Shown here in pieces: positions 3,799-20,010 of a stretch of 64,000 nt of DNA. This DNA is from Kofleriaceae bacterium (lineage in GTDB: Bacteria; Myxococcota_A; Polyangia; Haliangiales; Haliangiaceae), in contig JAGPCY010000002.1 in the NCBI GenBank assembly GCA_018057825.1, positions 248,001-312,000 of the forward strand, given 5' to 3'. The notes under the pieces are model-generated. The model made no database searches and was not told the origin of the DNA. It saw nothing but the letters and a program-made list of their open reading frames with translations. Made by a program: the position numbers and the translations under genes. Every line of letters begins with the position of its first letter. The stretch's first letter is position 1.

Positions 3799-3830
3799 CG
3801 CGGCCGCCCGCACCGGTAACGGATGGCCCC

Positions 3831-5174: not shown

Positions 5175-5241
5175 ACGGCCGGCCCGCCGGCCCGTACCCC
5201 GGGGCCGCCGCCTCGGCGCGCACCCGATCGGCGTCCGGGCC

Positions 5242-5267
5242 CAGGTCGCCGCGGGCCTGGACGACCT
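5242..5267. repeat. 26-bp direct repeat, left copy
   Basis: CAGGTCGCCGCGGGCCTGGA and the following six bases recur exactly at 6376-6401. The two copies bracket the Lys/Ala/Pro-tail gene together with its flanking A/B repeats. Confidence 0.85.
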
Positions 5268-5274
5268 CAGATCC

Positions 5275-5336
5275 CTTCACCGAGAGGTTGCTACCCGTCC
5301 TTGGCTACCCGTCCTTGGGGGTTGCTACCGGGGGCT
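5275..5336 (+). repeat. Block B repeats (one full, then partial copies)
   Basis: The first full block B copy of the window (CGAGAGGTTGCTACCCGTCC) is preceded by CTTCAC and followed by shortened copies (GGCTACCCGTCCTTGGGG, GTTGCTACC). It lies just before the start of the next gene. Confidence 0.9.
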
Positions 5337-5368
5337 TCGGAGTGACGGAACACGATACGCTGCCGCGC

Positions 5369-6145
5369 GTGAGCACGCGCCTCCACGCCATCCTGTATCG
5401 CCCAGCGAAGTTCGACCTCGCGGTGCTGAAGCGGCTGCTCGCTGGCGCCGCGCCGGTGGACCGCATGGAGTGCTTCCAGCATGCGGAGCTGCGCCGCGAT
5501 CTGCATGCCGCGCTCTACACGCCACCCGCCAAGCCGTCCCCGAAAGGTGGCTGGGGCTACGGCCTCGAGTACTTCGACGAGACGCTGTCGGGCCAGCTCA
5601 TCGACGCGATCGCCGGCTCGCCGCAGGAGGTCGTGCTGTTCGCGTGGGACGACTCCCTCGGCTGCGAGTGGACCTGGCGGCTCGGCCCCGGCGGCGATGA
5701 CCGGCGGTACATCATGGGCGACGGCGTCGGGGTCGCCGAACGCACCGACGCGCACGGCGAGCAGGTCACCAGCACCGCCTCGATCCGCGTCGGCGACGAC
5801 GTGGCCGACGTCGACGCCGCCCAGGCCCTGCTCGCCGCACCCTACGCCGCCGAGCCCGTCTTGCAGGCCGCGTTCGGCATCGGCATCGAGCCGCTCCTAG
5901 GGCTCCTCGCGAAGGCGCGCTGGGAGCTCATCTGGCCCGCCCGCGCCGCCGGGCTCCCCGCGAAGCCCGCCGCAAAGAAGCCCGCCGCAAAGAAGCCCGC
6001 TGCAAAGAAGCCCGCTGCGAAGAAGCCCGCCACAAAGAAGCCCGCTGCGAAGAAGCCCGCCGCGAAGAAGCCCGCCGCGAAGAAGCCCGCCGCAAAGAAG
6101 CCCGCCGCAAAGAAGCCCGCGCCACGGTCGATCGCCAAGCGCTAG
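5369..6145 (+). CDS. Unknown domain with histone-H1-like Lys/Ala/Pro tail
   Basis: A 258-residue protein with an N-terminal region of about 195 residues that I do not recognise (contains GGWGYGLEYFDETL and LFAWDDSLGCEWTWRLG), followed by ten KPAAK-type pentapeptides and a basic end. The tail is the histone H1/AlgP-like type, which binds DNA or polyanions in other bacteria. An in-frame ATG at 5288 lies inside a repeat, so I place the start at GTG 5369 (MSTRLHAILYRP). The gene is bracketed by block B repeats and by an exact 26-bp direct repeat. The tail is an obvious place for copy-number change. Confidence 0.75.
   Translation: MSTRLHAILYRPAKFDLAVLKRLLAGAAPVDRMECFQHAELRRDLHAALYTPPAKPSPKGGWGYGLEYFDETLSGQLIDAIAGSPQEVVLFAWDDSLGCEWTWRLGPGGDDRRYIMGDGVGVAERTDAHGEQVTSTASIRVGDDVADVDAAQALLAAPYAAEPVLQAAFGIGIEPLLGLLAKARWELIWPARAAGLPAKPAAKKPAAKKPAAKKPAAKKPATKKPAAKKPAAKKPAAKKPAAKKPAAKKPAPRSIAKR
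5963..6120. repeat. 15-bp tandem repeat coding KPAAK
   Basis: Ten or so in-frame copies of AAGCCCGCCGCAAAG, with silent changes and one Ala-to-Thr change. The synonymous differences between units argue against a very recent expansion. Confidence 0.95.
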
Positions 6146-6218
6146 CTCCGTAACCCTCCACCAACGGCGTCTTGAGCGAGGTCGCGCCGCAGCTTGACTT
6201 CGGCATCGTTGCCGTCGT

Positions 6219-6401
6219 CGAGAGGATGCTACCCGTCCTCGGGGCCGATCCCGCCGCCCCGCCGCCCGTACGTTCGATGGATTCTGCGACGCGATCCCGG
6301 GGGGCTTCGCCGAGAGGTTGCTAGCCGTCCATGGGCCTTCACCGAGAGGTTGCTACCCGTCCCTTCGGCGCGCACCAGGTCGCCGCGGGCCTGGACGACC
6401 T
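6219..6401 (+). repeat. A/B repeat cluster and right copy of 26-bp direct repeat
   Basis: A block B variant (GAGAGGATGCTACCCGTCC, 6220-6238), a diverged block A (6267-6305) joined to block B (6306-6330), and a further block B (6337-6361). The 26-bp direct repeat shared with 5242-5267 follows at 6376-6401. Confidence 0.9.
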
Positions 6402-6436
6402 GCGCCTGGACGATGTTTCCCGAGGGACGATAGGGC

Positions 6437-6748
6437 TCAGCGGGTGCGGCGCACCCAATACCCTGGGCGCCGGTGGGTGTGCGCGACGGCCTCGATACGA
6501 ATCAGGTCGCCGACCACGCGATACGCGAGCGCGTAGGGGAACCCGCGCACCAGGCACCGCCGTATCGCACGTGCGGGCTGGACGCCTGGAAATAGCGGCG
6601 ATGCAGTTGGCATCGCGTCGATCAAGCGAAGCGCTCGCTCGACCGCGTCGTAGAAGCGAACGCCACGCCCAGGGAAATCTGCCTCGTAGTGATCAGCCGC
6701 AGCGTCGAGCTCGACACGCGCTTCGCGGCTGAACTCGATCGCTGTCAC
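6437..6748 (-). CDS. ParE/RelE-superfamily toxin
   Basis: A toxin of 103 residues, near the family's usual 90-105. It begins VTAIEFSREARVELDAAADH and continues with FPGRGVRFYDAVERALRLI, a basic centre (RRCLVRGFPYALAYRVVGD) and IRIEAVAHTHRRPGYWVRR. This order is typical of the ParE-type fold (plasmid stabilisation proteins). ParE members poison gyrase and RelE members cut mRNA; which applies cannot be told here. The start is GTG 6748, chosen because it overlaps the antitoxin stop by 4 nt (GTGA). Confidence 0.88.
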   Translation of the reverse strand: MTAIEFSREARVELDAAADHYEADFPGRGVRFYDAVERALRLIDAMPTASPLFPGVQPARAIRRCLVRGFPYALAYRVVGDLIRIEAVAHTHRRPGYWVRRTR

Positions 6749-6975
6749 GGTCGCGCGCGCAACCGCCGCCGCCCCTCGTCGAGGACCGTCGTCGCAGGGA
6801 CGCCGGGCGTCGGATGCGCGACGCGCCGCTCCAGTTCGGCAGCCCATGCGACGCGGGGGTCGGAACCTTCGGCGTCGGCCTCCTCCAAGCTGCGCAGGAG
6901 CTCCTCGGCCGCCGCGGAGCGGTCGGCCGCGGGCAGGCGCAGTAGTTCGTCGAGCTGGCTGGGACGCGCCACCAT
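6745..6975 (-). CDS. Addiction-module antitoxin component
   Basis: A 76-residue protein starting MVARPSQLDELLRLPAADRS, with the pattern ELLRSLEE and then AWAAELERRVA, as in the putative addiction-module component family that pairs with ParE-type toxins. It precedes the toxin and overlaps it by 4 nt, the usual antitoxin-first order. A palindromic element at 7075-7112, about 100 nt upstream, is shared with the AbiE promoter region and may be an operator. Confidence 0.85.
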   Translation of the reverse strand: MVARPSQLDELLRLPAADRSAAAEELLRSLEEADAEGSDPRVAWAAELERRVAHPTPGVPATTVLDEGRRRLRARP

Positions 6976-7074
6976 GGCACCAGGGTACGTCGACCCCGCC
7001 GAAGCGACAACTGGGATCTGGGCGACGCTTGGCGAACCGGGCGCCCGATCGACGTCCACTGCGTTCTCGCCGCC

Positions 7075-7112
7075 CACGATTGGGAACCCTGGGTTCCGTT
7101 TCGTGCGCCCAG
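7075..7112. promoter_or_regulatory. Palindromic element shared with the AbiE region
   Basis: It contains the perfect palindrome GGAACCCTGGGTTCC followed by GTTTCGTGC. A near-identical 38-nt copy is at 10573-10610, and a diverged form lies across the abiEi start. It is about 100 nt upstream of the antitoxin gene. Confidence 0.6.
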
Positions 7113-7338
7113 CCTGGGCGACGTCTGCCTGAGCTCGGCCTCGGGCCGTGGGTGCTTCGCCACAGGGTCGTCGGTGACCCAGGGGGCGATCAGCAGCATC
7201 AGCTTCACCACGCCGATCGGCAACGGGCGCGTGCTGCGCGTCATCGCCACGTCGACGATCAGCGGTCAGGTGGTCGAGTTCGCGCGGCTGCTGATGGTGC
7301 CGACCACGCGCGAGCAATGTCAGATGCTGCCGAAGTAG
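7111..7338 (+). pseudogene. C-terminal remnant of an unknown exported protein
   Basis: An open stretch of 75 codons without a start reads like protein: SLGDVCLSSASGRGCFATG, then a strand-rich part (GNGRVLRVIATSTISGQVVE) and an end QCQMLPK before TAG 7338. Its 5' side merges with the palindromic element at 7075-7112, as if the beginning of the gene was removed by a rearrangement there. The three cysteines and beta-rich pattern suggest a secreted protein. No family was recognised. Confidence 0.4.
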
Positions 7339-7379
7339 CGGCGCGCGGCGGCGCACCAGGCGTCGGGCGTGGGCGACCC

Positions 7380-7403
7380 TTCACCGAGAGGTTCCTGCCG
7401 TCC
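7380..7403 (+). repeat. Solo block B repeat, variant
   Basis: TTCACCGAGAGGTTCCTGCC and the next bases match block B with two changes. It stands alone between the toxin-antitoxin region and the next operon. Confidence 0.8.
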
Positions 7404-7468
7404 ATCGGGCACCTGCGAATCCACTCCGTCTCTCCCCGCCTGAACGCGCGGCAGCCGCCTTCGGAGCC

Positions 7469-8140
7469 TCAGGGGAGGTGTCCTGTCGAGTCCGCGTCGG
7501 TAGATTCCATCAGCGGAGGCCGGCCCGCACGAACGTTGTCGGCGATCTGACGCTCGACTTGGTCAACCCGCTGCCGAACCTCGACGGGTACGGCCACCGG
7601 CACGTCCAGGACGAGCGAGAGGGTCAAGGCGGGTAGCCCTCCACCGAGCTCCTCCGCGGAGGCGCGCAGACCCTTGCGAAGTGCTTCACGAGCACAGGCT
7701 CCGCCTGGCTCTGGAACAGGCGTGAGGAGCTCAGGCGACCGCAGGGAAAGCCCGTCATCGTCTCCCACGGCAGACCAGCGAACCCGAAGGTGCGCTCCTC
7801 CGATGGCTTCGGCCAGCGAGCATCGCTCAAGGTCGTCCAAGGTGAAGACTCGCAGGTCCGCGATCAGGTTCACGGCGGTCTTCCAACGCTCCGCCTCATC
7901 CAGCGTCATCTCTCCTTCGAGGTACTCCGCCAGGCGATCTCTCCCCGCTGTGGGGGTCGCTATCGCGCCGCCCGCAGGGCGCGGCGCCGGCGCATGCCGC
8001 CGAGTGCCGACCGCCGCGACGTGCTTGGTGGCAACCGTCGAGCGTTCCTCAGGCGAGCTCCGCGTTATGAGCAGCCCGATGGCGCCATAGCCCAACGCCA
8101 TCCCTGCGATGAACGCAACGAGCCCGCGCGCAAGGGTCAT
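7469..8140 (-). CDS. Membrane-anchored hypothetical protein
   Basis: A 223-residue protein with an N-terminal hydrophobic helix (GLVAFIAGMALGYGAIGLLI) and a soluble domain containing EMTLDEAERWKTAVNLIADLR and two Cys residues (DDLERCSLAEA and GGACAREALRKG). The layout suggests a single membrane anchor with a periplasmic domain. It overlaps the upstream gene by 4 nt (ATGA), so the two are translated together. No family was recognised. Confidence 0.65.
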   Translation of the reverse strand: MTLARGLVAFIAGMALGYGAIGLLITRSSPEERSTVATKHVAAVGTRRHAPAPRPAGGAIATPTAGRDRLAEYLEGEMTLDEAERWKTAVNLIADLRVFTLDDLERCSLAEAIGGAHLRVRWSAVGDDDGLSLRSPELLTPVPEPGGACAREALRKGLRASAEELGGGLPALTLSLVLDVPVAVPVEVRQRVDQVERQIADNVRAGRPPLMESTDADSTGHLP

Positions 8141-8817
8141 CGCGATCGACTCTCCGACAGCACGGCCTTCACGCTCTCGTATCGCTCCGGGTGGTTCAAC
8201 GCGAAGTCGTTCTGCATCGCCGTGAACTCGGCAGCCGTGAGACGAGCCTGCGACCCACGATCAGCGACCCACACGCGAAACTGATAGTGCACCAGCCCTT
8301 CGGCCACTCGCTCTGGCTCTCGCTGGCGCGAGACCCCAACCCCCGAAAACAGGAACGGAAAGTCGCTCGCGACGGCGGCGTCGGCGACCGGGATCGCGAA
8401 GGAGACGTCGCACGAGGTCGAGTAGCACTCGCTGCCGTACCACTCAGATCCAGGAAACAGATCTCGCAGATTCCCCTGCGCGTATGCGCCAATGGCTTCC
8501 TCCATCTCCGCGGCCCATGCGGAGTCACGAACATCGTCTCGCCCGTCGTGGGACAGGGTGGGCTCTGCTGACATCGTGAGATCGAACTCGACGCGCCGGC
8601 CCCGCCGCGTCGCCAAGCTGACCGGCCTGCCAGGCAACATGCCCGCGATCGGACTTGTGACGTCTCCGGGAAGCGCCCCATCGGCCCTCGTCGCCGCTGC
8701 TGGTGTCGTGGGCGGCGTGGTCCGCACCTCCGCGAGCCCCCACCGAAGCCTCCCGCCAACCAGAAGCCCTGCCACCAAGGCCACAACGATCCATCGACTG
8801 TCGGCGGAGATCCTCAC
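8137..8817 (-). CDS. Exported hypothetical protein with SECYSTSC motif
   Basis: A 226-residue protein with an N-terminal hydrophobic helix (WIVVALVAGLLVGGRL), then a Pro/Ala-rich linker and a globular domain. The Cys pair in the segment GSECYSTSCDVSFAIP resembles a Cys-x4-Cys pair often seen in myxobacterial exported proteins, where it probably forms a disulfide. It is the first gene of a two-gene operon with 7469-8140. The function is unknown. Confidence 0.65.
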   Translation of the reverse strand: MRISADSRWIVVALVAGLLVGGRLRWGLAEVRTTPPTTPAAATRADGALPGDVTSPIAGMLPGRPVSLATRRGRRVEFDLTMSAEPTLSHDGRDDVRDSAWAAEMEEAIGAYAQGNLRDLFPGSEWYGSECYSTSCDVSFAIPVADAAVASDFPFLFSGVGVSRQREPERVAEGLVHYQFRVWVADRGSQARLTAAEFTAMQNDFALNHPERYESVKAVLSESRSR

Positions 8818-8902
8818 GTTCCTGCTCGCATGTCGGTCCTCACGTCATCGAGCATATCGACGTCGGCGCCGAGGTAGTCAGCGAGCGACCAAACAGACCG
8901 AC

Positions 8903-9038
8903 GGAGGGGGAGCACCTCTCGGCGAAGCTCGACTCGGACCGGCGCGTGGGCTTCGTGGTCCCGGTCGCGACGGTCCTCGGGCGCGGCGGCGCGCAGGAGG
9001 AGCCAGTCATGTCGCACTGTCCGCGGTGGTATCTGACG
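8903..9038 (+). pseudogene. 5' remnant of a RAYT unit
   Basis: The sequence matches the conserved leader upstream of the two complete RAYT genes (GTGGGCTTCGTGGTCCCGGT and neighbours) and then the first nine codons (MSHCPRWYL). It ends at 9038, two bases before the abiEii stop codon on the other strand. Part of the leader is also missing, so at least two deletions have occurred. Confidence 0.85.
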
Positions 9039-9039
9039 G

Positions 9040-9936
9040 TCAGCGCCACAGCCACTTGGCGGGCAGCCACGTTGCATCGAGCCCTGCGGCGAGCACCGGA
9101 TCAAGGAACGCCTTGGCCGCCGCTGTGACCTGTTCGAGCGTCGCCCAGTGGAGTTGGTCTTCGCGCGCCATCGCCTCGTAGGGCGTACGCCATGCTTCGG
9201 CTGGCGCGGGTACGGATTCGGGCAGCGGGTGCGTCTTGCGGAAGGCGAAGGTCAACTCGAGGGCCGCGCGCAGGCGCCTGGCGTCCAGCTCCTGCGCCGT
9301 CGCCAGAAGCGCGAGGTCGGGCAGGTCCTTCACGCGCGAGTTCGGACGCGCGCGAGGCATCGTGTAGGCGTGCAGCTTCTCCGCGATGTGCGTCTCGATC
9401 GGGTAGAGCCTCAGCGTCGGCGGGGCGATGCCGGCAAAGGCCAGCACGTCCTCCGCGACCACGACCTCGGGGTCGCCGAGGATCGGATCGCCGAACGCGA
9501 CATCGACACCGAAGGGCTGCCCATAGAGCTTGCCCGCGAGCCTACATTCGGCGCGAAACCGGAGGCCGTCGTACTGCATCCCGTCGTTCTGGATCTCCGG
9601 GTGGTCGTCGTCCGGCCCGATCTCGAACGCCATGAAGTCGCCGAGGTCCTTGCGACCGGCCTCCTGCAGCTTCGCAAGCAGATCCTCCGGCGAGCCCACC
9701 ATGCGGAGGTCGACGTCCTTCGTCGTGCGTGCTCGGTCGAGGCGTAGCTCAAGGACGAGGCCGCCCTTCAGCGTGGCCGCATCGCCGAGGACCGCGACGA
9801 TGCGGGCAAGGAAGCGATCGAAGACGAGGAGCTGACGCTTGCGCGCGAACTCGGCGCCCTTCTTGGCGGACGAACGCAAGCGCTGCTCGAGCGCCTGCTT
9901 GAAGGCCTCGGGCGAAGCGTACGTGCGTGGGGTCAT
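9040..9936 (-). CDS. abiEii: AbiEii nucleotidyltransferase toxin
   Basis: A 298-residue protein of the AbiEii/MenT family. The nucleotidyltransferase signature is visible: LKGGLVLELR (Gly58, Gly59) followed by KDVDL (Asp74, Asp76), the metal-binding acids. In characterised members the enzyme adds nucleotides to RNA and stops growth, in phage abortive infection or plasmid maintenance. The start at ATG 9936 overlaps the antitoxin gene by 4 nt; a longer frame beyond it is the shadow of abiEi. The gene's 3' end abuts a truncated RAYT copy. Confidence 0.9.
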   Translation of the reverse strand: MTPRTYASPEAFKQALEQRLRSSAKKGAEFARKRQLLVFDRFLARIVAVLGDAATLKGGLVLELRLDRARTTKDVDLRMVGSPEDLLAKLQEAGRKDLGDFMAFEIGPDDDHPEIQNDGMQYDGLRFRAECRLAGKLYGQPFGVDVAFGDPILGDPEVVVAEDVLAFAGIAPPTLRLYPIETHIAEKLHAYTMPRARPNSRVKDLPDLALLATAQELDARRLRAALELTFAFRKTHPLPESVPAPAEAWRTPYEAMAREDQLHWATLEQVTAAAKAFLDPVLAAGLDATWLPAKWLWR

Positions 9937-10517
9937 TGTGCGAGGCCTCCGAACGGCTCGAGCGCGGTTGCGACATCGGCGAGCTCGCTGCGCGTGACCA
10001 GGCCGCGCCGAAGCGCTTGCTGTGCGGCCTGCAGCAGCAGCTCCGGGGAGAGGCCGCTCTTGGCGCAGTCGCTCAGCGTGCGGCTGGCGCTCGTCGCCGG
10101 CACGGGGCCGAACCACGATCGCTCTTCGGAGGCCACGTCAGCGTGGTGGAGCACGACACCGGCCGGAACGCGAAACCGCCGCCGCCGCCAGGCCTCCGGC
10201 AGCGTGAGGTGCACCTGGGCCGGAAGGACGTCAGAGAGGCCGTGGAGCGACAGCGCCGTCTGGTGTGAGATCACGCCCGCCTGCTCGGACCAGAGCCAGG
10301 CGGTGACCAGCTCTTCGTGCTCGCCGGCCAGGAAGTGCACGAGCCGGTAGATTCCGCGCTGAGGCCTCGCCACACGGCCGGCGTGGATGTGCTTGCGGAG
10401 CAGGTGGGTGGAGTAGCCCGCAGCTGCAGCCTGCTTCGTCGTGACGTACCCGGACTGGCCAGCGGCGGTCTCGAACAGCCGGTCCCAGTGCGGTCGCCTG
10501 GCTTCGGGCGTCGCCAT
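9933..10517 (-). CDS. abiEi: AbiEi antitoxin, winged-helix repressor
   Basis: A 194-residue antitoxin. The N-terminal winged-helix part (about residues 10-60, with GYVTTKQAAAAGYSTHLLRK and PQRGIYRL) is the AbiEi_4-type DNA-binding domain. The C-terminal domain contains HQTALSLHGLSDVLP, typical of the family. Characterised AbiEi proteins neutralise AbiEii and repress their own promoter through inverted repeats. The start was taken at ATG 10517, because the few extra upstream codons fall inside a candidate operator. Confidence 0.9.
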   Translation of the reverse strand: MATPEARRPHWDRLFETAAGQSGYVTTKQAAAAGYSTHLLRKHIHAGRVARPQRGIYRLVHFLAGEHEELVTAWLWSEQAGVISHQTALSLHGLSDVLPAQVHLTLPEAWRRRRFRVPAGVVLHHADVASEERSWFGPVPATSASRTLSDCAKSGLSPELLLQAAQQALRRGLVTRSELADVATALEPFGGLAQ

Positions 10518-10550
10518 GCACGAAACGTAACCCACGGTTCCGTTTTGTGC
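10516..10550. promoter_or_regulatory. Candidate AbiEi operator, inverted repeat
   Basis: The arms GCACGAAAC and GTTTTGTGC form an imperfect inverted repeat that overlaps the abiEi start codon. The arms share the GTTTCGTGC half of the palindromic elements at 7075-7112 and 10573-10610. Autorepression through such sites is known for AbiE systems; the binding here is inferred. Confidence 0.55.
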
Positions 10551-10572
10551 AATGCCGGGCCGGCCTCGCCCT

Positions 10573-10610
10573 CACGATTAGGAACCCTGGGTTCCGTTTC
10601 GTGCGTCCAG
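10573..10610. promoter_or_regulatory. Second copy of the palindromic element
   Basis: It matches 7075-7112 over 38 nt with only a few differences and contains GGAACCCTGGGTTCC and GTTTCGTGCG. It lies about 60 nt upstream of abiEi. Confidence 0.65.
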
Positions 10611-10689
10611 TCTGACCCTTGGCCCGGAAGTCAGCGAGGTGGGAACGGCGGGCGGGCCCCAAGGGGCCGGTAGCCAAGGGACGGTCCCG

Positions 10690-10927
10690 GGGACTTCACC
10701 GATAGGTTGTTCCGGGGGCGGCGCGCGTCGCCATGGCACGCGGTTGAGCGCCGGCGGCCCCCGGCGAAGGGGAGCGGCGTCTCGGCGAAGCCCGACTCGA
10801 CTCGGACCGGCTCGTGGGCTTCGTGGTCCCGGTCGCGAGGGTCCTCGGGCGCAGCCCGCAACCGCGGCGAGGGGCGGGCCGATAGGGCAGGCATGCGCGT
10901 CACGGCGGCGCGCAGGAGGAGCCCGTC
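10690..10927 (+). repeat. Conserved leader of RAYT unit 1
   Basis: It begins with a decayed block B (CTTCACCGATAGGTTGTTCC) and carries the leader that also precedes the second RAYT (12180-12411) and the remnant at 8903-9038. No promoter was recognised in it. The conservation suggests that the leader moves with the gene or is bound by it. Confidence 0.8.
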
Positions 10928-11911
10928 ATGTCGCACTGTCCGCGGTGGTATCTGCCCAAGCTGGTCTACGAGGTCACGATTCGCACCCTGCAAGGGACGT
11001 TCTGGATGCGTCCGGATCCCGAGTGCGCCGCCATTGTGGCCGGGGTCTTCGGCCGGGCGCTGCGGCGGTATCCTGGGGTGCGGCTCCACGGCTTCGATGC
11101 GCAATCGAACCACCTGCACTACCTGTTGTCGGCGACCGAGCCGGCGCAGATCCCGCGGTTCGTCGGGTTCGCCCACAGCAACATCGCGCGGCAGATCAAC
11201 AAGTTGCGGGGACGAACCGGGGTCTTCTGGAGCCGGCGCAGCAAGGTGATCGCCGTGCTCGACGACGAGGCCCAGCTCGACCGCATGACGTACCTCTTGA
11301 GCCAGGGGCCCAAGAGCAAGCTGGTCGCCTCGCCCAAGGACTGGCCCGGCGCCTGCTCGACCCCGGGGCTGCTCGGCGACATGACCGTGCCCGCTCGGTA
11401 CAAGGGCCTCGACGCCTGCCGGCGCAACCGCTTGCGCCGCAACCCGCGGCCCGAGGCCGCGCTCGAGGAGGACGTGCAGATCACGCTCACGCCGCTGCCC
11501 GCTATCGAGGGCCTCCCGCCCGACGAGCTGCGCGCCGCCCACGCCGCCCTGGTCGCCGCGACTGAGGCGAGGTATGCGGGCCAGAAGGTCCTGGGCGCCA
11601 GGTTCCTGGTCGAGCAGGACCCCGAGACCCGCCCCGAGAACTTCGTCCCCACACCCGCACCGCGGTGCCACGCCCGGTCGACCCCGGTCCGCCTTCGGTA
11701 CAAGAAGTGTTACCGAACCTTTCAAGATCTCTACCGGGGCGCTTCCGGCCGCGTCCTTGGGCGACCCGCCGACCAGCCCGTCGCGATCATGGCTGAGTAC
11801 CCACCCGGGGCCATGATCCGTGCCCACTGGTACAAGCCCGCGCCCGCCGAGCTCGCCAACGCCTGGCTCCACGGCACGGACGACCTCGACGCGTTCGAGG
11901 TGCCCTTCTGA
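10928..11911 (+). CDS. RAYT/Y1-type transposase-like protein, copy 1
   Basis: A 327-residue protein of the REP-associated tyrosine transposase (IS200-like Y1) superfamily. The HUH motif is H62-L63-H64 in NHLHYLL, and a likely catalytic tyrosine is Y122 in DRMTYLLSQGPKSKLV, with Gln126 at the metal-ligand position (Y-x3-Q). A RAYT is usually about 150-220 residues; this one has an extra C-terminal region of about 190 residues with no recognised domain. Such proteins nick single-stranded DNA at palindromic REP sequences. It lies directly between copies of the A/B repeats, its probable substrates. Copy 2 (12412-13395) differs at about ten residues. Confidence 0.85.
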   Translation: MSHCPRWYLPKLVYEVTIRTLQGTFWMRPDPECAAIVAGVFGRALRRYPGVRLHGFDAQSNHLHYLLSATEPAQIPRFVGFAHSNIARQINKLRGRTGVFWSRRSKVIAVLDDEAQLDRMTYLLSQGPKSKLVASPKDWPGACSTPGLLGDMTVPARYKGLDACRRNRLRRNPRPEAALEEDVQITLTPLPAIEGLPPDELRAAHAALVAATEARYAGQKVLGARFLVEQDPETRPENFVPTPAPRCHARSTPVRLRYKKCYRTFQDLYRGASGRVLGRPADQPVAIMAEYPPGAMIRAHWYKPAPAELANAWLHGTDDLDAFEVPF

Positions 11912-12186
11912 CGCGCGCCGCCGCGTCCCTCCTGCGCTGACGCGCCAACCACCCCTCGCCCCCGCCTGCTCCACCCGACCCGCCCAGCGCCCCTGGACCG
12001 GCCGGGCGGCGGCGCTTTCGGCCGGGCCAATCCCGCCGCCCCGCGGCCCGAACGGTCTATGGATTCTGCGACGCGATCCACGGGGGCTTCGCCGAGAGGT
12101 TGCTACCCGTCCTTGGGCCCGAACGGTCTATGGATTCTGCGACGCGATCCAGGAGGGACTAACCGAGAGGTTGCTACCCGTCCGAG
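11912..12186 (+). repeat. RAYT 3' flank and two A+B repeats
   Basis: A conserved GC-rich flank begins at the RAYT stop codon and includes GCGCTGACGCGCCAACCACC and GGCCAATCCCGCCGCCCCGC. Two complete A+B units follow (about 12053-12120 and 12123-12181). The same flank follows RAYT copy 2. Confidence 0.9.
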
Positions 12187-12411: not shown

Positions 12412-13395
12412 ATGTCGCACTGTCCGCGGTGGTATCTGCCCAAGCTGGTCTACGAGGTCACGATCCGCACGCTGCATGGGACGTTCTGGCTGCGTCCGGA
12501 TCCGGAGTGCGCCGCCATTGTGGCCGGGGTCTTCGGCCGGGCGCTGCGGCGGTATCCCGGGGTGCGGCTCCACGGCTTCGATGCGCAATCGAACCACCTG
12601 CACTACCTGTTGTCGGCGACCGAGCCGGCGCAGATCCCGCTGTTCGTCGGGTTCGCGCACAGCAACATCGCGCGGCAGATCAACAAGTTGCGGGGGCGAA
12701 CCGGGGTCTTCTGGAGCCGGCGCAGCAAGGTGATCGCGGTCCTCGACGACGAGGCCCAGCTCGACCGCATGACGTACCTCTTGAGCCAGGGGCCCAAGAG
12801 CAAGCTGGTGGCCTCGCCCAAGGACTGGCCCGGCGCCTGCTCGACCCCGGGGCTCCTCGGGGACATGACCGTGCCTGCTCGGTACAAGGGCCTCGACGCC
12901 TGCCGGCGCAACCGCCTGCGCCGCATCCCGCGGCCCGAGGCAGAGCTCGAGGAGGACGTGCAGATCACGCTCACGCCGCTGCCCGCTATCGAGGGGCTCG
13001 CGCCCGATGAGCTGCGCGCCGCCCACGCCGCCCTGGTCGCCGCGACCGAGGCGACGTACGCGGGCCAGAAGGTCCTGGGCGCCAGGTTCCTGGTCGAGCA
13101 GGACCCCGAGACCCGCCCCGAGAACTTCGTCCCCACGCCCGCCCCGCGGTGCCACGCCCGGTCGACCGCGGTCCGCCTTCGGTACAAGAAGTGTTACCGA
13201 ACCTTTCAAGATCTCTACCGGGGCGCTTCCGGCCGCGTCCTTGGGCGACCCGCCGATCAGCCCGTGGCGATCATGGCTGAGTACCCACCCGGGGCCATGA
13301 TCCGCGCCCACTGGTACAAGCCCGCGCCCGCCGAGATCTCCAACGCTTGGCTCCACGGCACGGACGACCTCGACGCGTTCGAGGTGCCCTTCTGA
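12412..13395 (+). CDS. RAYT/Y1-type transposase-like protein, copy 2
   Basis: A 327-residue near-copy of the protein at 10928-11911, with the same HUH motif (NHLHYLL) and Y122-x3-Q126. I count ten amino-acid differences by eye, among them Q22H, M27L and R77L, and a two-residue change near the end (LANA to ISNA); none falls in the catalytic motifs. Both copies are intact, so the duplication is recent or both are kept functional. A RAYT is normally single-copy per genome and not self-mobile, so a tandem pair plus a third truncated copy (8903-9038) within 4.5 kb is unusual. Confidence 0.85.
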   Translation: MSHCPRWYLPKLVYEVTIRTLHGTFWLRPDPECAAIVAGVFGRALRRYPGVRLHGFDAQSNHLHYLLSATEPAQIPLFVGFAHSNIARQINKLRGRTGVFWSRRSKVIAVLDDEAQLDRMTYLLSQGPKSKLVASPKDWPGACSTPGLLGDMTVPARYKGLDACRRNRLRRIPRPEAELEEDVQITLTPLPAIEGLAPDELRAAHAALVAATEATYAGQKVLGARFLVEQDPETRPENFVPTPAPRCHARSTAVRLRYKKCYRTFQDLYRGASGRVLGRPADQPVAIMAEYPPGAMIRAHWYKPAPAEISNAWLHGTDDLDAFEVPF

Positions 13396-14116
13396 CGCGC
13401 GCCGCCGCGTCCCTCCTGCGCTGACGCGCCAACCACCCCTCGCCCCCGGCTGCTCCACCCGACCCGCCCAGCGCCCCCTGGGCCGGCCGGGCAGCGGCGC
13501 TTTCGGCCGGGCCAATCCCGCCGCCCCGCGGCCCGGACGGTCTATGGATTCTGCGACGCGATCCACGGGGGCTTCGCCGAGAGGTTGCTACCCGTCCTGC
13601 GGCGGGCCAATCCCGCCGCCCCGCGACCCGAACGGTCTATGGATTCTGCGACGTGATCCAGCGGGGTTTCACCGAGAGGTTGCCCTTCACCGAGAGGTTG
13701 CTACCCGTCCCTTGGGCCCGAACGGTCTATGGATTCTGCGACGTGATCCAGCGGGGCTTCACCGAGAGGTTGCTACCCGTCCTTGGGGGTTTCACCGAGA
13801 GGATGCTACCCTTCACCGAGAGGTTGCTACCCGTCCTTGGGGCTCCACCCGACCCGCCCAGCGCCCCTGGGCCGGCCGGGCAGCGGCGCTTTCGGCCGGG
13901 CCCAATCCCGCCGCCCCGCGGCCCGAACGGTCTATGGATTCTGCGACGTAGTCCAGCGGGGCTTCGCCGAGAGGTTGCTACCCTTCCCCGAGAGGGGCGA
14001 CGCGATCCAGGGGGCTTCGCCGAGAGGTTGCTACCCGTCCCCGTCCTGGTGGAGCAGGCGGGGGCGAGGGGTGGTTGCGCGTCAGCGCAGGGGGACGCAG
14101 CGGCGCGCGTCAGAAG
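13396..14116 (+). repeat. Large A/B repeat array with inverted RAYT flanks at its ends
   Basis: The left end is the RAYT copy 2 3' flank. The middle has at least four block A copies, about eight full or partial block B copies and a second copy of the CCAATCCCGCCGCCCCGC segment. The right end, 14049-14116, is a reverse-complement copy of the first 70 or so bases of the RAYT 3' flank, starting with the TTCTGA that ends the RAYT. The array is thus bounded by inverted repeats of about 70 nt and could fold into a long hairpin. Confidence 0.9.
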
Positions 14117-15927
14117 ATGCCCCCCCGCAGCAACAGCGCGATAAGCACGCCAGTTGCCGCAGCGGCAAGCGCCACCGCTGCCGCCGCTGCCACTGAGAGC
14201 TTCGCAAGAGGCGCAGCATCGGGCTCGACTGGAACGACTTCGATTTTTGCGTCGCGCCTCAACTGAAAGTCCTCGCCCGATTCCACAAATCGCATCCTAA
14301 TCAGCCCCAGATCGATCACGTCGCCGCGCAGCAACTTCGCAGAACCCGCAAGAACCAGCCCATTGACGCGCACCGCATTCGTTGACTGCAAGTCGGATAT
14401 TGAATAGGATTCACTTTCCGAAAGGCGTGAGATCTTTGCATGATTGCGGCTGACCGAATAGTGATTAATTACAATGTCGTTCTCATCCGTTCGCCCAATA
14501 GTCATCGACGTTTCCGTAAGATAGATCTCGCGAATGTATCCAGATGACAGAACGAACAAGCGCGCCGGCTTCGATGGCGTCACAGTGGCCGCGAGTGATG
14601 TGTCAGACACTGGGCTGTCAGACACTGGGCTGGGCCGCTGCGATGTCATCTCCTGCGTGGCTGAAAAGTCTCTCTCAAGCGCATCTACCTTAGCCTGCGC
14701 TCGCGATACAAGGCCTGACAGATCGTCAGGCTCTAATGCGTTCTTGTTTTCGCGAATGAGCGTCAATTCACTTGCCAGTGCATTGGCCGCCTTGTAGAGA
14801 ACCCCAAACTCGGCAAGCGGCTTACGCACGCTCGCAAGCTTTCGCTCAGCCTTCTCCAGCGATCGAGCAACACGCTCTAGCGTGGCAGTTCGCGCTGCTG
14901 CCAGATTCGAGAGAAATCCGGCAAGTGCAGCTTTCATTGCCTCGGCGTCGCTGAACCTGTCCTCGGGCTTAAACGCGAGCGCGCGCTTCAGCACATCGAA
15001 CATCTGCAGATGCATCGACGCCGGTCGAACGAGCGCGCCTTTGCTAGCTTCGTACCGTGCGGCGAGTGCGATATTTAGATCTGCGCCGACCGCTTGAAAC
15101 GGAACCGTTCCAACGGCCGCATGCCATAGAATTGACCCGACGGCGTGAATGTCGGCTCGACACGTCACTGGCTCGCGATTCAGTTGCTCTGGGCTCATGT
15201 AGTCCGGCGTTCCGCCGAACGGGAGAATATCTGCGCTGCCACGAATTGAGCCGCCGCCGGGAGCATCGGCGGCTTCCTGCCACAGGCCAAGGTCTGCAAT
15301 GCGGATACGCCAGCTCGTTGACGAGCCTGCGGTGCGAGAGGCAAATATGTTGTCAGGCTTCAGGTCCCTATGAACCCAGTGCTTGCTGTGCATGCGTGAC
15401 AATGCATCGAGAATCTGGACACCTAATGTCGCCACGTCAACCGCAGCGATACTGCCTCCAGTCTCAAGCAATAGGCGAGTAAGAGTTGGGTCGTCGATAA
15501 CACGCATCGACAGATACGGCGGATCTGCGGCATCGAAGCCCATTACCTCAACATATTGTTTCGACTGTGCCAGCATCTTCGCTGCAGACGCTTCACTGTC
15601 GAACAGGCGCAGCGCGAGACTGACCGTGTCGGGGCCACCCTGACGCTGAACAACCTTGATGGCGCGCCGCCCGTCGTCCATGCCCGGCTTGACGGCGTCT
15701 TCGTCAATAGCCAAGAATACTGCGCCCATACCGCCACCACCTAGACGCTTCTGAAATACAAACCGACGGCGAAAGCGGAACGGAAGGAGCGGCCAGCCGC
15801 CGTCGGGCATGGAAGTTCCGCATCGGATTCCATCCAATGGCATACCAGGGCAGCGCTTGTGCTGCACCTCGAATACACTCCAACACATTTCACATAGATA
15901 CTTTGTATCGGATGGATCGATGCTCAC
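14110..15927 (-). CDS. Ser/Thr kinase with zinc ribbon, FHA and C-terminal membrane helix
   Basis: A 605-residue protein. The N-terminus has a likely zinc ribbon (Cys12, Cys15, Cys26, Cys36). The kinase domain spans about 52-330, with GGGGMGAVF, AIKVV, HRDLKPDN and GTPDYMSPEQ; the DFG position reads ADLGL. A coiled-coil region follows, then an FHA domain at about 460-535 (MTIGRTDENDIVI, SVSRNHAKIS) that binds phosphothreonine, and a membrane helix at about 575-600. Codon use is visibly less GC-rich than in the flanks, which suggests transfer. The last codon and stop (TTC TGA) coincide with the inverted RAYT-flank copy, so that insertion may have supplied the stop. Confidence 0.88.
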   Translation of the reverse strand: MSIDPSDTKYLCEMCWSVFEVQHKRCPGMPLDGIRCGTSMPDGGWPLLPFRFRRRFVFQKRLGGGGMGAVFLAIDEDAVKPGMDDGRRAIKVVQRQGGPDTVSLALRLFDSEASAAKMLAQSKQYVEVMGFDAADPPYLSMRVIDDPTLTRLLLETGGSIAAVDVATLGVQILDALSRMHSKHWVHRDLKPDNIFASRTAGSSTSWRIRIADLGLWQEAADAPGGGSIRGSADILPFGGTPDYMSPEQLNREPVTCRADIHAVGSILWHAAVGTVPFQAVGADLNIALAARYEASKGALVRPASMHLQMFDVLKRALAFKPEDRFSDAEAMKAALAGFLSNLAAARTATLERVARSLEKAERKLASVRKPLAEFGVLYKAANALASELTLIRENKNALEPDDLSGLVSRAQAKVDALERDFSATQEMTSQRPSPVSDSPVSDTSLAATVTPSKPARLFVLSSGYIREIYLTETSMTIGRTDENDIVINHYSVSRNHAKISRLSESESYSISDLQSTNAVRVNGLVLAGSAKLLRGDVIDLGLIRMRFVESGEDFQLRRDAKIEVVPVEPDAAPLAKLSVAAAAAVALAAAATGVLIALLLRGGIF

Positions 15928-16026
15928 AACTTCCCCTGGCTGGGCCTGCGCATACGCAACGGACGGGGAGAGCGTCCGCCGTGTGTGATCCTAGCGTCGA
16001 CGCCACCCGACGATCAAGGCTCAGGT

Positions 16027-16150
16027 CGTGCCCAAGGTCGGGTAGCAACCTCTCGGCCCCCAAGGACGGGTAGCAACCTCTCGGGGAAGCCCCCCTGGAT
16101 CACGTCGCAGAATCCATAGACCGTTCGGGCCGCGGGGCGACGAGATTGGC
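16027..16150 (-). repeat. A/B repeats in reverse orientation
   Basis: Two block B copies (GGGTAGCAACCTCTCGG form) and one block A run on the minus strand, then a diverged GATTGGCCGGGCCGCC segment. The cluster lies upstream of the FHA kinase start and is opposite in orientation to the array at 13.4-14.1 kb. Confidence 0.9.
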
Positions 16151-16208
16151 CGGGCCGCCCCGGGGGCGGTTGGCTTTGTCGCGGGTGGGCTGGGGGGGTG
16201 GCGCGGCC

Positions 16209-16245
16209 GCCCAGCCCCCGTAGATCTCAAGGCTTTCGACCCAGT
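16209..16245 (+). promoter_or_regulatory. Copy of the MoxR-operon leader element
   Basis: TAGATCTCAAGGCTTTCGA, with flanking CCAGCCCC and CAGTTC, matches the sequence just before the moxR-like gene (20213-20247). A third, looser match is at 56358-56380 before the Wzz/tyrosine kinase gene. Its function is unknown; it could be a regulator site or transcript leader. Confidence 0.5.
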
Positions 16246-16256
16246 TCTTTTCTGGC

Positions 16257-16285
16257 CCGCCGAGAGGTTGCTACCCGTCGTTGGG
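16257..16285 (+). repeat. Solo block B repeat
   Basis: CCGCCGAGAGGTTGCTACCC followed by GTCGTTGGGG, in plus orientation. Confidence 0.85.
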
Positions 16286-16540
16286 GGAAGGGTGTCTACG
16301 ACGGTGGCGCTGGCTCCCACAACACCTTCGCGAAGGCTGAACCAGGGGCGTCCGCGTCCAAGTCGGCCTCGCGCCCGCCATGGACCAGCAATCCCGGGCG
16401 CCGGTGTTGGTCCCAGGCCGAGCCCGGCTGGCTGAGGCCGGGGAGAAATTTTCGCATTTGCGGGGCTTTGCGCGGCGGGGGTCGTTCGAGGCCGCCGGGC
16501 AGTGGACGCGGCCCGGTGCCTCCTCTAGCCTAAAGGAAAC

Positions 16541-17302
16541 ATGCCGGGCTTTGATCGCAACGACACCTACACCGCCACCATCTTCCTACACGATGGGCGC
16601 CAGGAGCGCGAGATGGTCTTGCGCCTCGGCGAATCCTTTGCTGATCGCGCGGATCTCCCATCGCGCCTTAAATACAAGGGCGAAGGACAAGTCGGTGTTC
16701 TCGGCCTGGCATCGGAACTCGACGCACACATCTGGCAATCTACTGGTAATCTCCTAACTCTTGTCGTCGCGACTGATCGCGTCATTCTCCAACTCGACGC
16801 ACTCGCGGTTCGCGAACTGAAGAACTACGAGACGACATCGGTGCACTTTGCTTCCCTTGCAGCAGAGCTAAGCAATTCTGGCTCAGTACTCGAGCAAGAC
16901 GTAAAGCGACTTGCATTGGCGACACAGCGAGCCGGCGCGGTGAACGATCCACGCGCAGTAAGACGTTGGATTATTGAGCACTGCTGCGGTGGGTCGCTTG
17001 ATGCGCTCGCGGATACCTCATTGGTGGACGACGTTACGATTCGAATCAACGAGCGAACGAGCGAGATCTTGTCGGGGCGCGAGACGGCACTTAACAAGGT
17101 ACAGTCCTTGGGGCTTGAGTGGCAGCTCCGCGCTTACACCGCAGAGGAGTTTCTGCTCAAGTGGTCAGTCGATGTGAACACTGCGCTTCTATCGACGAAC
17201 ACCGGTGTGTATTCAGAACCAGAATGCCGCGCGTTCTTTCAGCACGCTGGGCGAGTCGCCGATTCCTCGAGACTGAAGCTCCAGTCCCTTGAGGCGCTCT
17301 GA
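16541..17302 (+). CDS. Unknown protein, first gene of a three-gene accessory operon
   Basis: A 253-residue cytosolic protein starting MPGFDRNDTYTATIFLHDGR, with AAGGAAAC as a good ribosome-binding site. The N-terminal half looks beta-rich (TATIFLHDG, EMVLRLGES, QVGVLGLAS); the rest is helical, with RRWIIEHCCGG and a Trp/Lys-rich stretch (AYTAEEFLLKWSVDVN). No signal peptide is seen and no family was recognised. It overlaps the next gene by one base. The base composition is lower in GC than the housekeeping regions. The kinase-FHA gene is divergently oriented 0.6 kb upstream. Confidence 0.75.
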   Translation: MPGFDRNDTYTATIFLHDGRQEREMVLRLGESFADRADLPSRLKYKGEGQVGVLGLASELDAHIWQSTGNLLTLVVATDRVILQLDALAVRELKNYETTSVHFASLAAELSNSGSVLEQDVKRLALATQRAGAVNDPRAVRRWIIEHCCGGSLDALADTSLVDDVTIRINERTSEILSGRETALNKVQSLGLEWQLRAYTAEEFLLKWSVDVNTALLSTNTGVYSEPECRAFFQHAGRVADSSRLKLQSLEAL

Positions 17303-17946
17303 TGATCATCGTCGAATTGAATCAGTCGTCCGCGGGGCATCCGGCGCTGATGGGCGGCAATGTTTGTGAAAACGAGCCCACGCCGGCAGCAGCCATGGGG
17401 AAGCTAGCAATCCGAAGCACGCCGCTGCGCATCGCGAGAAGACTCGCCGCGACGTGTCGGAGCGTTCGCAATGACACAGAGGACAATGTTGCTGAAGTTT
17501 GCGCAGAGGGCAGCGCAACTCTCAGGCCGTTCGTAGTGCTTACTGAACGCACCGAACTTCGCACGGAACGGACAGACGTTTCCCCTGGCGAACTAGCTTC
17601 TCCCCAGGCCTCGCCGCCCCGTCACCGACACCATCTGCGTGCGCCTGATTGGGTTCTGCAAGTCGAGAGACACGCAACGGCCGGACTGCACGACCGTGCG
17701 CTGGACGTTCTATTCGAGCGCGTGGACGCCATGTTCGCACGCGGCGCGTTCGCCGAATGCGACGCGCACCTCTCCTCCTTCAAGTTGGCAATGTTGGACA
17801 CGGACGTGCTTGTTGGCCTAGCTGCGTCGACGGCGCCGGCCGCGGACAAATTGCCACATCGTGCTGTCATGCTGGAGGCAATCAAGATGCGATTGGCAAA
17901 AATCGCGCCAGAGCGCGCTCCAGCTATCGTGAAGCATCTAAGGTGA
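17302..17946 (+). CDS. Unknown protein with C-terminal helical domain
   Basis: A 214-residue protein. The first 110 or so residues are Arg/Thr/Pro-rich and look poorly ordered. The C-terminal 90 form a recognisable small helical domain: LHDRALDVLFERVDAMFARG, then FAECDAHLSS and LLPHRAVMLEAI-like helices. I have seen this pattern as a stand-alone protein of unknown function in many actinobacterial and proteobacterial accessory regions. It starts at ATG 17302, which overlaps the stop of the previous gene. An internal start that gives only the helical domain cannot be excluded. Confidence 0.65.
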   Translation: MIIVELNQSSAGHPALMGGNVCENEPTPAAAMGKLAIRSTPLRIARRLAATCRSVRNDTEDNVAEVCAEGSATLRPFVVLTERTELRTERTDVSPGELASPQASPPRHRHHLRAPDWVLQVERHATAGLHDRALDVLFERVDAMFARGAFAECDAHLSSFKLAMLDTDVLVGLAASTAPAADKLPHRAVMLEAIKMRLAKIAPERAPAIVKHLR

Positions 17947-17950
17947 CTTC

Positions 17951-18631
17951 GTGCTGACACGACTTGAACGCGAGATTCCAGTTGATGTCGCGGTTCACGC
18001 CGTGACGGTGCTTCTGTGCCAGACTGAGCAGGGCAATCTCCACATGGGGGTCGCTTACCGGGACCAGGCAGGGGGGAGAGCGAACTTGCATCTCGGATGG
18101 GAGGACAACATGAGTAATCGATGGAACTGGAGGGGGGCGTGGGTCGCCCCGTCTCTGGATCCGTCCATCCTCACGAGCGTCGCGGCACGGTGTAGAGCGG
18201 TGTGGAAGCACTACGAACGTGAACGCAAGTTCACTTACTCGCTTTGTTGGGGCGGAACGTCATTTGCAGCGGACGGGGCGTTGCTTCTCGAAGCTGGTGC
18301 GGCCGGTCTCTCCTGCGCAACCCTTGTCCTAGCGCTGTTTCGATCTATCGGAGTCGACCTGTTGGTCGAAAACGAGTGGCCCGATCGCACAGCAATGAAC
18401 CGAGAATTCTTGGCATTCCTGGAGAGAGTTGCTGGCGAGGGAAATGAAGCTGTTATTCAGCGACTGACCGCGGAGGTGGAAGGGGGGGTGAGGCGCATCC
18501 TGCCACAAGAAGTCGCGGCAGCGTGTGAACAGCAACTCCCGGCGAAGTATGCAGCGTGTGAGACCCGTGGTGGGGAGATCGCTGCGATGGTGGCGCGCGG
18601 GCCCCGAGAACGAGTAGCAACCTCTCGGTGA
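17951..18631 (+). CDS. Unknown protein, possible papain-like or NlpC/P60-type fold
   Basis: A 226-residue protein from GTG 17951. A His in the segment ANLHLGWEDNM precedes a Cys at the start of a helix, GLSCATLVLALFRSIGVDLL. This His-then-Cys order is that of permuted papain-like (YiiX/LRAT-type) domains, so a cysteine hydrolase or acyltransferase is possible, but this is a tentative reading. The last codons (RERVATSR and stop) are encoded by a reversed block B repeat, so the original C-terminus has probably been replaced by repeat insertion. Confidence 0.65.
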   Translation: MLTRLEREIPVDVAVHAVTVLLCQTEQGNLHMGVAYRDQAGGRANLHLGWEDNMSNRWNWRGAWVAPSLDPSILTSVAARCRAVWKHYERERKFTYSLCWGGTSFAADGALLLEAGAAGLSCATLVLALFRSIGVDLLVENEWPDRTAMNREFLAFLERVAGEGNEAVIQRLTAEVEGGVRRILPQEVAAACEQQLPAKYAACETRGGEIAAMVARGPRERVATSR

Positions 18632-18729
18632 AGCAACCCAAGGACGGGTAGCAACCCCGAAGGACGGGTAGCAACCTCTCGGTGAAAACCCGCTGGATCA
18701 CGTCGCCCCGTGGACGGGTAGCAACCTCT
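18603..18729 (-). repeat. Reverse-oriented A/B repeats between convergent genes
   Basis: Four block B copies (one shortened) and a partial block A on the minus strand fill the whole space between the stop codon of 17951-18631 and that of the DUF4238 gene. Both stop codons lie inside or at the edge of block B copies. Confidence 0.9.
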
Positions 18730-19708
18730 ATTCCGACTTTGGTACGTCAGGTGACTTGCCCGCTAGAGTCACGAGCAAGTCCTTGTTCGACGCATACAAC
18801 TGCCGGTGCGCGGTCGCTGCCATTGCTTCGTTGTAGAAGGAGACTTCGGCGACTGTCAGGGCTCTTGTAAGAACCGAAGGTTCAGGGTGATTAAATTCGA
18901 GCAAAACGCTGCGTTGAGGGGACAGTGGATAGAACAGGTTAAGTGCCGTGGGCGGCGGGCCGGACTTCGTGGCGCGCAAGTTGATGGCCGGCTGATCACT
19001 GGTAATAAATGCAGTTCCTGACGGAGCCTCCAGAAGCGCGGCTCTCATCACGCCACCGTGCTTCGCTAGTCCGAAGGCAAGACTCGTGGAAAAAATGACG
19101 CGAAGTACGCCAGCAGAGGCGCCGACGTTAAGCGAGAGCCTATCCGCTGTTGTCAGCCCGTTTACCAAGCGGTCAAGGATCCCTGGCGTGCGGAGATACT
19201 GGAACGCTATGAACAGGGCAAATTGATCGAATCGCGCGGGATCTCTGAACAGTGTTACATCGCCTAGCCTCAGCTCCGCGAGAATATGGGCAGAGTCAAC
19301 TTCGATACGCGAGTGAATCTCCTCTTCCAAGTTCTGGATGGCAGCTTCGATCGTCCGCTCTATGCTTTCGTCCTCCTTGGAACGCAGGCTGTAGAGCTTC
19401 TGCACATTGAATATCGAGCGGAACAGCTGCAGCCAGCCCGTTGCGACATTGACGAGTCCGGGATCGGAAAATCTGGAAATGAGCAAGGCGACAATTTCAT
19501 AGTCGCGCTCCGACATCTGTTTCAATTTGTAGAAATCCCGACCGACAGCAATGTTGTTGGGGCTGGCGGGAAAGGGTTCTCCACCCATCGAGCACCACAG
19601 CGTCCCCCCGTCCGTCCACGCCTGAAGGTAGTGCTTCCAGACGTAGTGTTGACGGCGCTTGAGATCGGCGTCTTTGAACATCAGTTGCTCCGGTTCTTGT
19701 TCTGCCAC
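18728..19708 (-). CDS. DUF4238 family protein
   Basis: A 326-residue protein with the DUF4238 hallmarks: RRQHYVWKHYLQAWTDGG near the N-terminus (family pattern H-Y-V...Y-L) and TAFITSDQPAINLRA in the second half, then FYPLSPQRSVLLEF. DUF4238 proteins are found in accessory and defence neighbourhoods; their activity is not known to me. GTG 19708, preceded by a G-rich stretch, gives the longest product; ATG 19681 is an alternative. The stop codon TAG runs directly into AGGTTGCTACCC, block B. Confidence 0.8.
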   Translation of the reverse strand: MAEQEPEQLMFKDADLKRRQHYVWKHYLQAWTDGGTLWCSMGGEPFPASPNNIAVGRDFYKLKQMSERDYEIVALLISRFSDPGLVNVATGWLQLFRSIFNVQKLYSLRSKEDESIERTIEAAIQNLEEEIHSRIEVDSAHILAELRLGDVTLFRDPARFDQFALFIAFQYLRTPGILDRLVNGLTTADRLSLNVGASAGVLRVIFSTSLAFGLAKHGGVMRAALLEAPSGTAFITSDQPAINLRATKSGPPPTALNLFYPLSPQRSVLLEFNHPEPSVLTRALTVAEVSFYNEAMAATAHRQLYASNKDLLVTLAGKSPDVPKSE

Positions 19709-19710
19709 GT

Positions 19711-20010
19711 CCCCCCAAGGACGGGTAGCAACCTCTCGGTGAATCCCCCAAGGACGCGTAGCAACCTCTCGGTGAAGCCCCGCTGGATCGCGTCGAAGAA
19801 TCCCCGGTGAAGGGTAGCAACCTCTCGGTGAAACCCCGCTGGATCACGTCGCAGAATCCATAGACCGTCCGGGCTGCGGGTCGGCGGGATTGGCCCCAAG
19901 GACGGTAGCAACCTCTCGGCGAAGCCCAGGATCGCGTCCTCGAAATCCATATGGCGTCCGCAGATCGCGTGGCCGAGATTGGCCCCGCCGAAGGCGCCGC
20001 CGCCAGGCCG
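19711..20010 (-). repeat. Reverse-oriented A/B repeat cluster at the right island border
   Basis: At least four block B copies and three block A copies or part-copies on the minus strand, with the GATTGGCCCC/GGCGGG segment. They run from the DUF4238 start towards the moxR promoter. The last copies are more diverged. No A/B copies were seen to the right of about 20.05 kb. Confidence 0.9.

Follow-up and report, generated by a model that had tools for sequence, protein, structure and literature searches.

We analysed 64,000 nucleotides of the genome of a Kofleriaceae bacterium (the window; contig C8, positions 248001-312000, of an assembly of 8.89 Mb in 84 contigs), in which an island holds two copies of a gene for a RAYT-type HUH/Y1 transposase, several defence-type genes and many copies of two short repeat blocks, A and B. 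The original prediction, made from the sequence of the window, was that these repeats punctuate a row of defence-type cassettes. When up to three mismatches were allowed, nine copies of A and 22 of B were found in the window, far above the 0.01 and 0.00 expected from shuffled sequences, and all of them lie within 5281-19867. Every copy to the left of 14.04 kb is on the plus strand, and 10 of the 11 copies to the right of 16.0 kb are on the minus strand (the exception is at 16261), as predicted. The gene groups also differ in base composition: the G+C content of the kinase-FHA gene, the three-gene operon and the DUF4238 gene is 0.555-0.61, compared with 0.66-0.715 in the left-hand groups and 0.72 in the window. 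The island is composed as follows:

5241-5267, no strand: left copy of a 27-bp perfect direct repeat, a fragment of an eCIS_core-type gene (27/27 identity to 6375-6401)
5281-5300, plus: B repeat, left edge of the island (exact match)
5324-6145, plus: gene with a histone H1/HC2-like lysine-alanine tail, start codon uncertain (PF07382, E 2.3e-7, below the curated cut-off)
6219-6362, plus: B-A-B-B cluster (B 6219, A 6271, B 6311, B 6343; repeat matches)
6375-6401, no strand: right copy of the 27-bp direct repeat (identity to 5241-5267)
6437-6799, minus: ParE-family toxin gene (PF05016, E 3.9e-8)
7469-8817, minus: overlapping pair of genes for exported proteins (7469-8140 and 8137-8817; open reading frames (ORFs) with no Pfam match)
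8904-9035, plus: RAYT 5' fragment, to about codon 9 (blastn, 87-96% to the 5' region of RAYT copy 2)
9040-10535, minus: genes for AbiEii toxin and AbiEi antitoxin (PF08843, E 1e-35; PF13338, E 8.8e-15; PADLOC AbiEii, 3.3e-91)
10928-11911, plus: RAYT copy 1, HUH/Y1 transposase (homology, profile matches)
12053-12183, plus: two A+B units, 3' end of RAYT copy 1 (repeat matches)
12412-13395, plus: RAYT copy 2, 97% identical to copy 1, with H62-x-H64 and Y122-x3-Q126 (fold matches 4er8)
13538-14040, plus: A/B array of four A and seven B at the 3' end of RAYT copy 2 (repeat matches)
14110-15927, minus: Ser/Thr kinase-FHA gene, G+C 0.574 (PF00069, 5.9e-26; PF00498, 1e-13; PADLOC PD-T4-6, 2.3e-44, a generic kinase match)
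16036-16123, minus: B-B-A cluster, inverted relative to the RAYT array (repeat matches)
16261-16280, plus: solo B, the sole plus-strand copy to the right of 16 kb (repeat match)
16541-18631, plus: three-gene operon, G+C 0.57-0.61, last gene weakly DUF6527 (ORFs, Pfam)
18608-18731, minus: B cluster, partly degenerate (repeat matches)
18728-19708, minus: DUF4238 gene, G+C 0.555 (PF14022, E 2e-22)
19719-19918, minus: B/A array, right edge of the island (repeat matches)

Both RAYT copies of the window carry A+B at the end of their 3' flank, and this part of the original prediction applies to most of the other copies in the genome as well. Nine RAYT copies of at least 231 residues (75-97% identity), plus fragments, were found, at the same loci as B. 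Homology among the copies has no sharp left end, which varies by tens of bases, while its right end is sharp at B: in most loci it stops within about 5 bases of the outer end of B. Judging from these alignments, B is therefore the right end of a mobile RAYT-like HUH/Y1 element. B is located at the 3' end of nearly every copy, and at the 5' end in some loci only, in direct orientation. Block A is optional: it is missing from the copy at C39:7060 and from many solo sites, which consist of B only, and the C12 copy at 921 has a degenerate A/B. The minimal conserved repeat is TTCRCCGAGAGGTTGCTACCCGTCSTTGGG, approximately 30 nt; it is not a clear palindrome, and GTAG is found on the strand opposite to B as written.

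In 13 RAYT sequences, H64 and Y122 are invariant, H62 is nearly so, and Q126 is present in most. An AlphaFold model (predicted local distance difference test score, pLDDT, 89) has as its top PDB match 4er8, a RAYT bound to a hairpin of the repetitive extragenic palindromic (REP) type (E 2.2e-5, about 144 columns). The catalytic residues and the fold are intact. The NCBIfam RAYT model NF047646 matched with E 1.7e-7 and 31.2 bits, under its curated cut-off of 80. Exact B was absent from 55 relatives and was not found in viral contigs, and no close relative of the RAYT was found among the PLSDB plasmids.

In the whole genome, B matched at 65 sites when up to three mismatches were allowed, compared with 8 for a reversed control sequence. 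All but two of the 65 lie in six loci, and every locus has RAYT copies or fragments (C8:253-268k, C12:0-2k, C12:180-188k, C39:4-30k, C41:24k and C72:166-187k). The repeats thus mark other islands besides the one in the window, and they are not spread evenly through the genome. Contigs C12 and C39 start inside RAYT copies, which indicates that the assembly breaks there and that both loci could be neighbours.

All six RAYT/B loci carry defence systems according to PADLOC and Pfam matches, so the proposed tie between the repeats and accessory genes is supported. The C8 locus has AbiE, ParE and the kinase-FHA gene. The first C12 locus (C12a, 0-2k) has DpdB-like, DndH-like, DndD/PbeC and DndC genes, and the second (C12b, 180-188k) a Drt6-type reverse transcriptase and a C5 methylase. 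In C39 we found SspB, part of SspC, SspD and a Fic protein; in C41 a 1326-residue protein with an LmuA-like N-terminus (Lmu-type NTPase); and in C72 SIR2_2 with a STAND NTPase, together with eCIS_core proteins whose C-termini vary (the test for this domain was run on the C39 copy). Signs of partial decay are seen in the Ssp phosphorothioation system of C39 (L035:10583-21129): the N-terminus of SspB is missing, and SspC is represented by a C-terminal half, preceded by a stretch without a good frame. Three large proteins of 946-1111 residues (C72:177307-180147 and 183607-186942; L036:4113-6953) stand beside RAYTs and share their N-termini but differ in their C-termini; eCIS_core (PF13699) was found in the one of them that was tested. 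Downstream there are repeated copies of a 92-residue ORF (MPYNLMAQSQWEV...), and together this resembles a polymorphic-toxin locus in which partner genes have become orphans.

In five loci, the distance from the A/B end of a RAYT to a defence-type gene or operon is 23-129 bp. Since the cargo occurs in either orientation relative to the RAYT, this proximity is not explained by shared transcription. About 8 of 10 neighbours on the 3' side of RAYTs of the A/B type are defence genes, compared with 0 of 10 for a second RAYT-like family of the same genome (Fisher p 0.0007); this is a small sample with heuristic gene calling, in which the kinase match is generic and the tally is our own count, with the SIR2-STAND and operon neighbours included as defence. 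Taken together, the sequences point to a strong linkage of this RAYT subfamily to defence genes.

Beside the second family (about 12 copies, about 33% identical), none of the 10 neighbouring genes tested had a PADLOC match. A second strong AbiEii gene lies at C65:64278-64943 (L141 ~3278-3943), 5-6 kb from a member of this family, which may therefore not be free of defence linkage. Its members were found at or near the ends of many contigs (C3, C21, C51, C79, C65, C35 and C42), the pattern to be expected if a near-identical multicopy element interrupts the assembly. More distant RAYTs (35-48%) were considered as further defence-linked cases and rejected, as they stand mostly beside core genes: their neighbours include an Lhr helicase, a sulfate permease and a metallophosphatase with a pyrroloquinoline quinone (PQQ) propeller, and the PADLOC matches beside them (kinases, Lhr) are generic.

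The closest relative, G003, has two RAYTs that are 51-57% identical to those described here, each at a contig end. Their 3' flanks retain the A-like GATTCCGCGACGTGAT with B-like repeats of a different sequence; on C96 of G003, four copies of the hairpin GAGTCG-N8-CGACTC are present at the 3' flank. One RAYT neighbour in G003 is an AAA protein with PRTase_III-A (5e-26), a retron-type PRTase. On C100 of G003, the RAYT repeats are followed by two small genes and then by DzbA (1.9e-57; Dazbog).

These comparisons bear on neutral co-location, according to which RAYTs and repeats survive only in dispensable DNA, which is largely made up of defence islands, and B is intergenic since insertions into genes were lost. 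Mobile elements and defence genes generally cluster in islands (PMC10121019), REPs pile up near rayt in four genomes (PMC2817692), and the repeats described here also occur in debris such as truncated DUF3224 genes and insertion sequence fragments. Passive accumulation in dispensable DNA is a possible origin for much of this debris. It does not easily explain the contrast between the two RAYT families of one genome or the recurrence of the pattern in G003 with other cargo and other repeats; the short distances in five loci also argue against it, and passive accumulation alone does not account for a B-bounded block inside a gene (see below). As a full explanation we consider neutral co-location rather unlikely.

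The block inside a gene was found in C12b, where a DUF3224-type gene, a small gene and a nucleotidyltransferase gene are present as a tandem duplicate (the names were assigned by eye from the sequence, not by family search). The nucleotidyltransferase gene of copy 1 is split, and its intact duplicate lies about 3 kb away. The 5' part (180870-181107) corresponds to 184390-184627 of the intact copy (97.5%), and the 3' part (183337-183758) to 184741-185167 (96.7%). Inserted between them are, in this order, B-B, an M48-peptidase-like gene, B-B-B, a second ORF and B, with all B in one orientation. The junctions lie within a few bases of B units that are B cores without A, and 113 bp of the target are missing. 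Two B are also present at the joint of the duplication itself, and the second DUF3224-type gene breaks off at B. Genes of this type break off at a B repeat in two different loci (C72:170341-170560, L038:5341-5560; and C12:183808-184032).

Shared breakpoints were also found between islands, as the RAYT+eCIS blocks of C39 and C72 share 3.6 kb at 97.65% identity and lose their similarity directly after B. In C41, the genes flanking the block are direct neighbours in five relatives, with 17 bp between them in G003, which identifies 7.7 kb with a RAYT remnant, A/B and the gene for the 1326-residue protein as an insertion. The right flank of C12a was located in relatives; its far side could not be linked, as contig C12 starts inside a RAYT. 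A protein from the right flank of the C72 island has only distant, probably paralogous matches. Overall, B-bounded blocks seem to be insertable modules in at least one clear case.

In the window, the 27-bp direct repeat flanks a B-bounded block with the HC2-like gene (27/27, compared with a maximum score of 14 in shuffles). The kinase-FHA gene lies 69 bp from the A/B array of RAYT copy 2, and the 3' end of the last gene of the operon is overlapped by B. The claim that A/B separates every gene group was too strong: between 6362 and 12053 there is no A/B copy, which leaves the ParE gene, the exported pair, AbiE and the first RAYT without A/B between them. This stretch holds instead the RAYT 5' fragment (8904-9035), which stops 5 bases short of the AbiEii stop codon, and a different 42-bp repeat (7075 and 10573). 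The latter (7075-7116 and 10573-10614) has the perfect palindrome GGAACCCTGGGTTCC, brackets the exported pair and AbiE, and was not seen in the other loci fetched from this genome. To the right of the island, the next gene encodes a MoxR ATPase (20248), a core gene that is 87-92% conserved in five relatives. No empty site of this island was found: in none of the relatives does the DNA upstream of the conserved MoxR operon match the left flank, and the right border alone is therefore fixed.

How blocks may have come to be exchanged at B can be pictured in more than one way. If only homologous recombination is at work, a past RAYT scattered B and A/B, and RecA-type recombination now duplicates, deletes and swaps the DNA between them, with no further role for the RAYT. 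The A/B tracts of 70-140 bp with 85-95% identity, within and between islands, are consistent with this, as are the tandem RAYT duplication of the window (C8:258699-260174 and 260182-261683, 94.7%), whose junctions lie in or beside A/B, and the C39/C72 block with one breakpoint at B. At about 30 nt, the solo B cores offer little length for such recombination, though, and the junctions of the split nucleotidyltransferase gene are just such cores without A. We regard this explanation as possible, if not the leading one.

In our preferred reading, a RAYT-type HUH/Y1 element multiplied and left solo B copies, the RAYT/B loci are defence islands, and B marks cassette edges; we give it a probability of roughly 55%. 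An element with A+B as its right end would multiply in the genome and leave solo copies of the approximately 30-nt repeat B nearby. B-bounded blocks of DNA would then be inserted at or between B copies, and cargo could be added or swapped by RAYT strand transfer on single-stranded B, by homologous recombination between B copies, or by both. We favour this combination, in which the RAYT makes and spreads B and one or both routes act on the cargo. The linkage to defence genes and the position of B as an edge can be read from the sequences themselves; that exchange occurs at B we infer from the split gene and the shared breakpoints. Homologous recombination between repeats could give the same end state, and the RAYT is only a putative builder of the arrays.

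Several observations weigh against this reading. Folding of the A+B unit as single-stranded DNA is no better than that of shuffles. Cargo and B occur in mixed orientations, the groups at 6.36-12.05 kb of the window have no bounding B, and the C41 insertion is bordered by B on just one side. A single clear split-gene case was found. Defence genes also occur outside the islands (AbiEii on C65, SIR2_2 on C29), and the evidence comes from static sequence of this genome and of relatives from other species. The modular island originally proposed is partly supported: the defence linkage and B as the RAYT end stand, one clear case suggests that B-bounded blocks can insert, the RAYT is a putative builder, and the bounding of every group does not hold. 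The cargo was not found in relatives without the repeats either, as the first gene of the three-gene operon, the one gene covered by this search, is absent from all 55 relatives.

A bolder version would make the RAYT-type HUH transposase a gene-cassette system that moves or receives B-bounded blocks by way of its right-end repeat and has built several of the defence islands of the genome in this Myxococcota lineage, a counterpart of the integron without integrase. We consider this doubtful, and less probable than either alternative above. An integron-like or other site-specific recombinase acting on B, with the RAYT as a bystander, would be expected to produce the direct repeats in B-cargo-B. 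This is very improbable, however: Pfam detected no integrase or recombinase gene among those island genes to which it was applied, nearly every copy of the RAYT element terminates in B, and the repeat beside the RAYT of G003 is another one.

How islands gather and reshuffle defence genes is largely open, and the role of RAYTs and REPs for their host has been asked since their discovery. The near-confinement of B to defence islands, the recurrence in G003 and the block inside a gene provide a testable link between both questions. The B repeat can also be used to find new defence candidates; the three-gene operon, the DUF4238 gene and a 481-residue ATPase beside Ssp are examples. More generally, repeat-edged blocks in defence islands suggest a little-studied route by which bacteria assemble their defence arsenals. 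No report linking RAYT/REP to defence cassettes was found in the open-access literature, which is not proof of absence.

Among known systems, chromosomal integron cassette arrays likewise have repeats at cassette edges and direct repeats around the cargo. Integron cargo includes defence and toxin-antitoxin genes, as does the cargo here. In contrast to integrons, no integrase turned up in the Pfam scans of island genes, which covered some ORFs but not all, no attC-type fold was shown, the cargo is in both orientations, and several loci are involved instead of one array. IS200/IS605 elements also have a single Y1 transposase gene and are multicopy, and the fold matches the ISDra2 and IS608 transposases; the element described here differs in its ill-defined left end, in a right end spread as solo repeats and in the other genes between ends.

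RAYTs have been described as genes between two inverted REPs, which are dispersed in high copy, and an accumulation of repeats near rayt was already noted in four genomes (PMC2817692). According to PMC6006769, REPtrons (RAYT/TnpAREP with REP) do not seem to move as a unit by transposition. In vitro, TnpAREP cuts single-stranded REP and joins it again (PMC8266576). Our element shares with them the HUH/Y1 transposase with H-x-H and Y-x3-Q and 4er8 as best PDB match, a short family-specific repeat beside the gene that varies with the transposase, GTAG on one strand of B, and local accumulation of the repeat near the gene. It differs in that the gene is multicopy, not a single full-length gene per REP type; that the repeat is confined to a few islands (63/65 in six loci) and not dispersed in hundreds; that the flanking repeats examined are direct, not inverted, with no clear palindrome in B; that the NCBIfam score is 31 against a cut-off of 80 bits; and in the tight linkage to defence genes with B-bounded cargo. 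The element is thus RAYT-like, not a canonical REPtron. As in defence islands and hotspots, several unrelated defence systems stand close together at sites that vary between relatives; here, one repeat family and its transposase mark the blocks.

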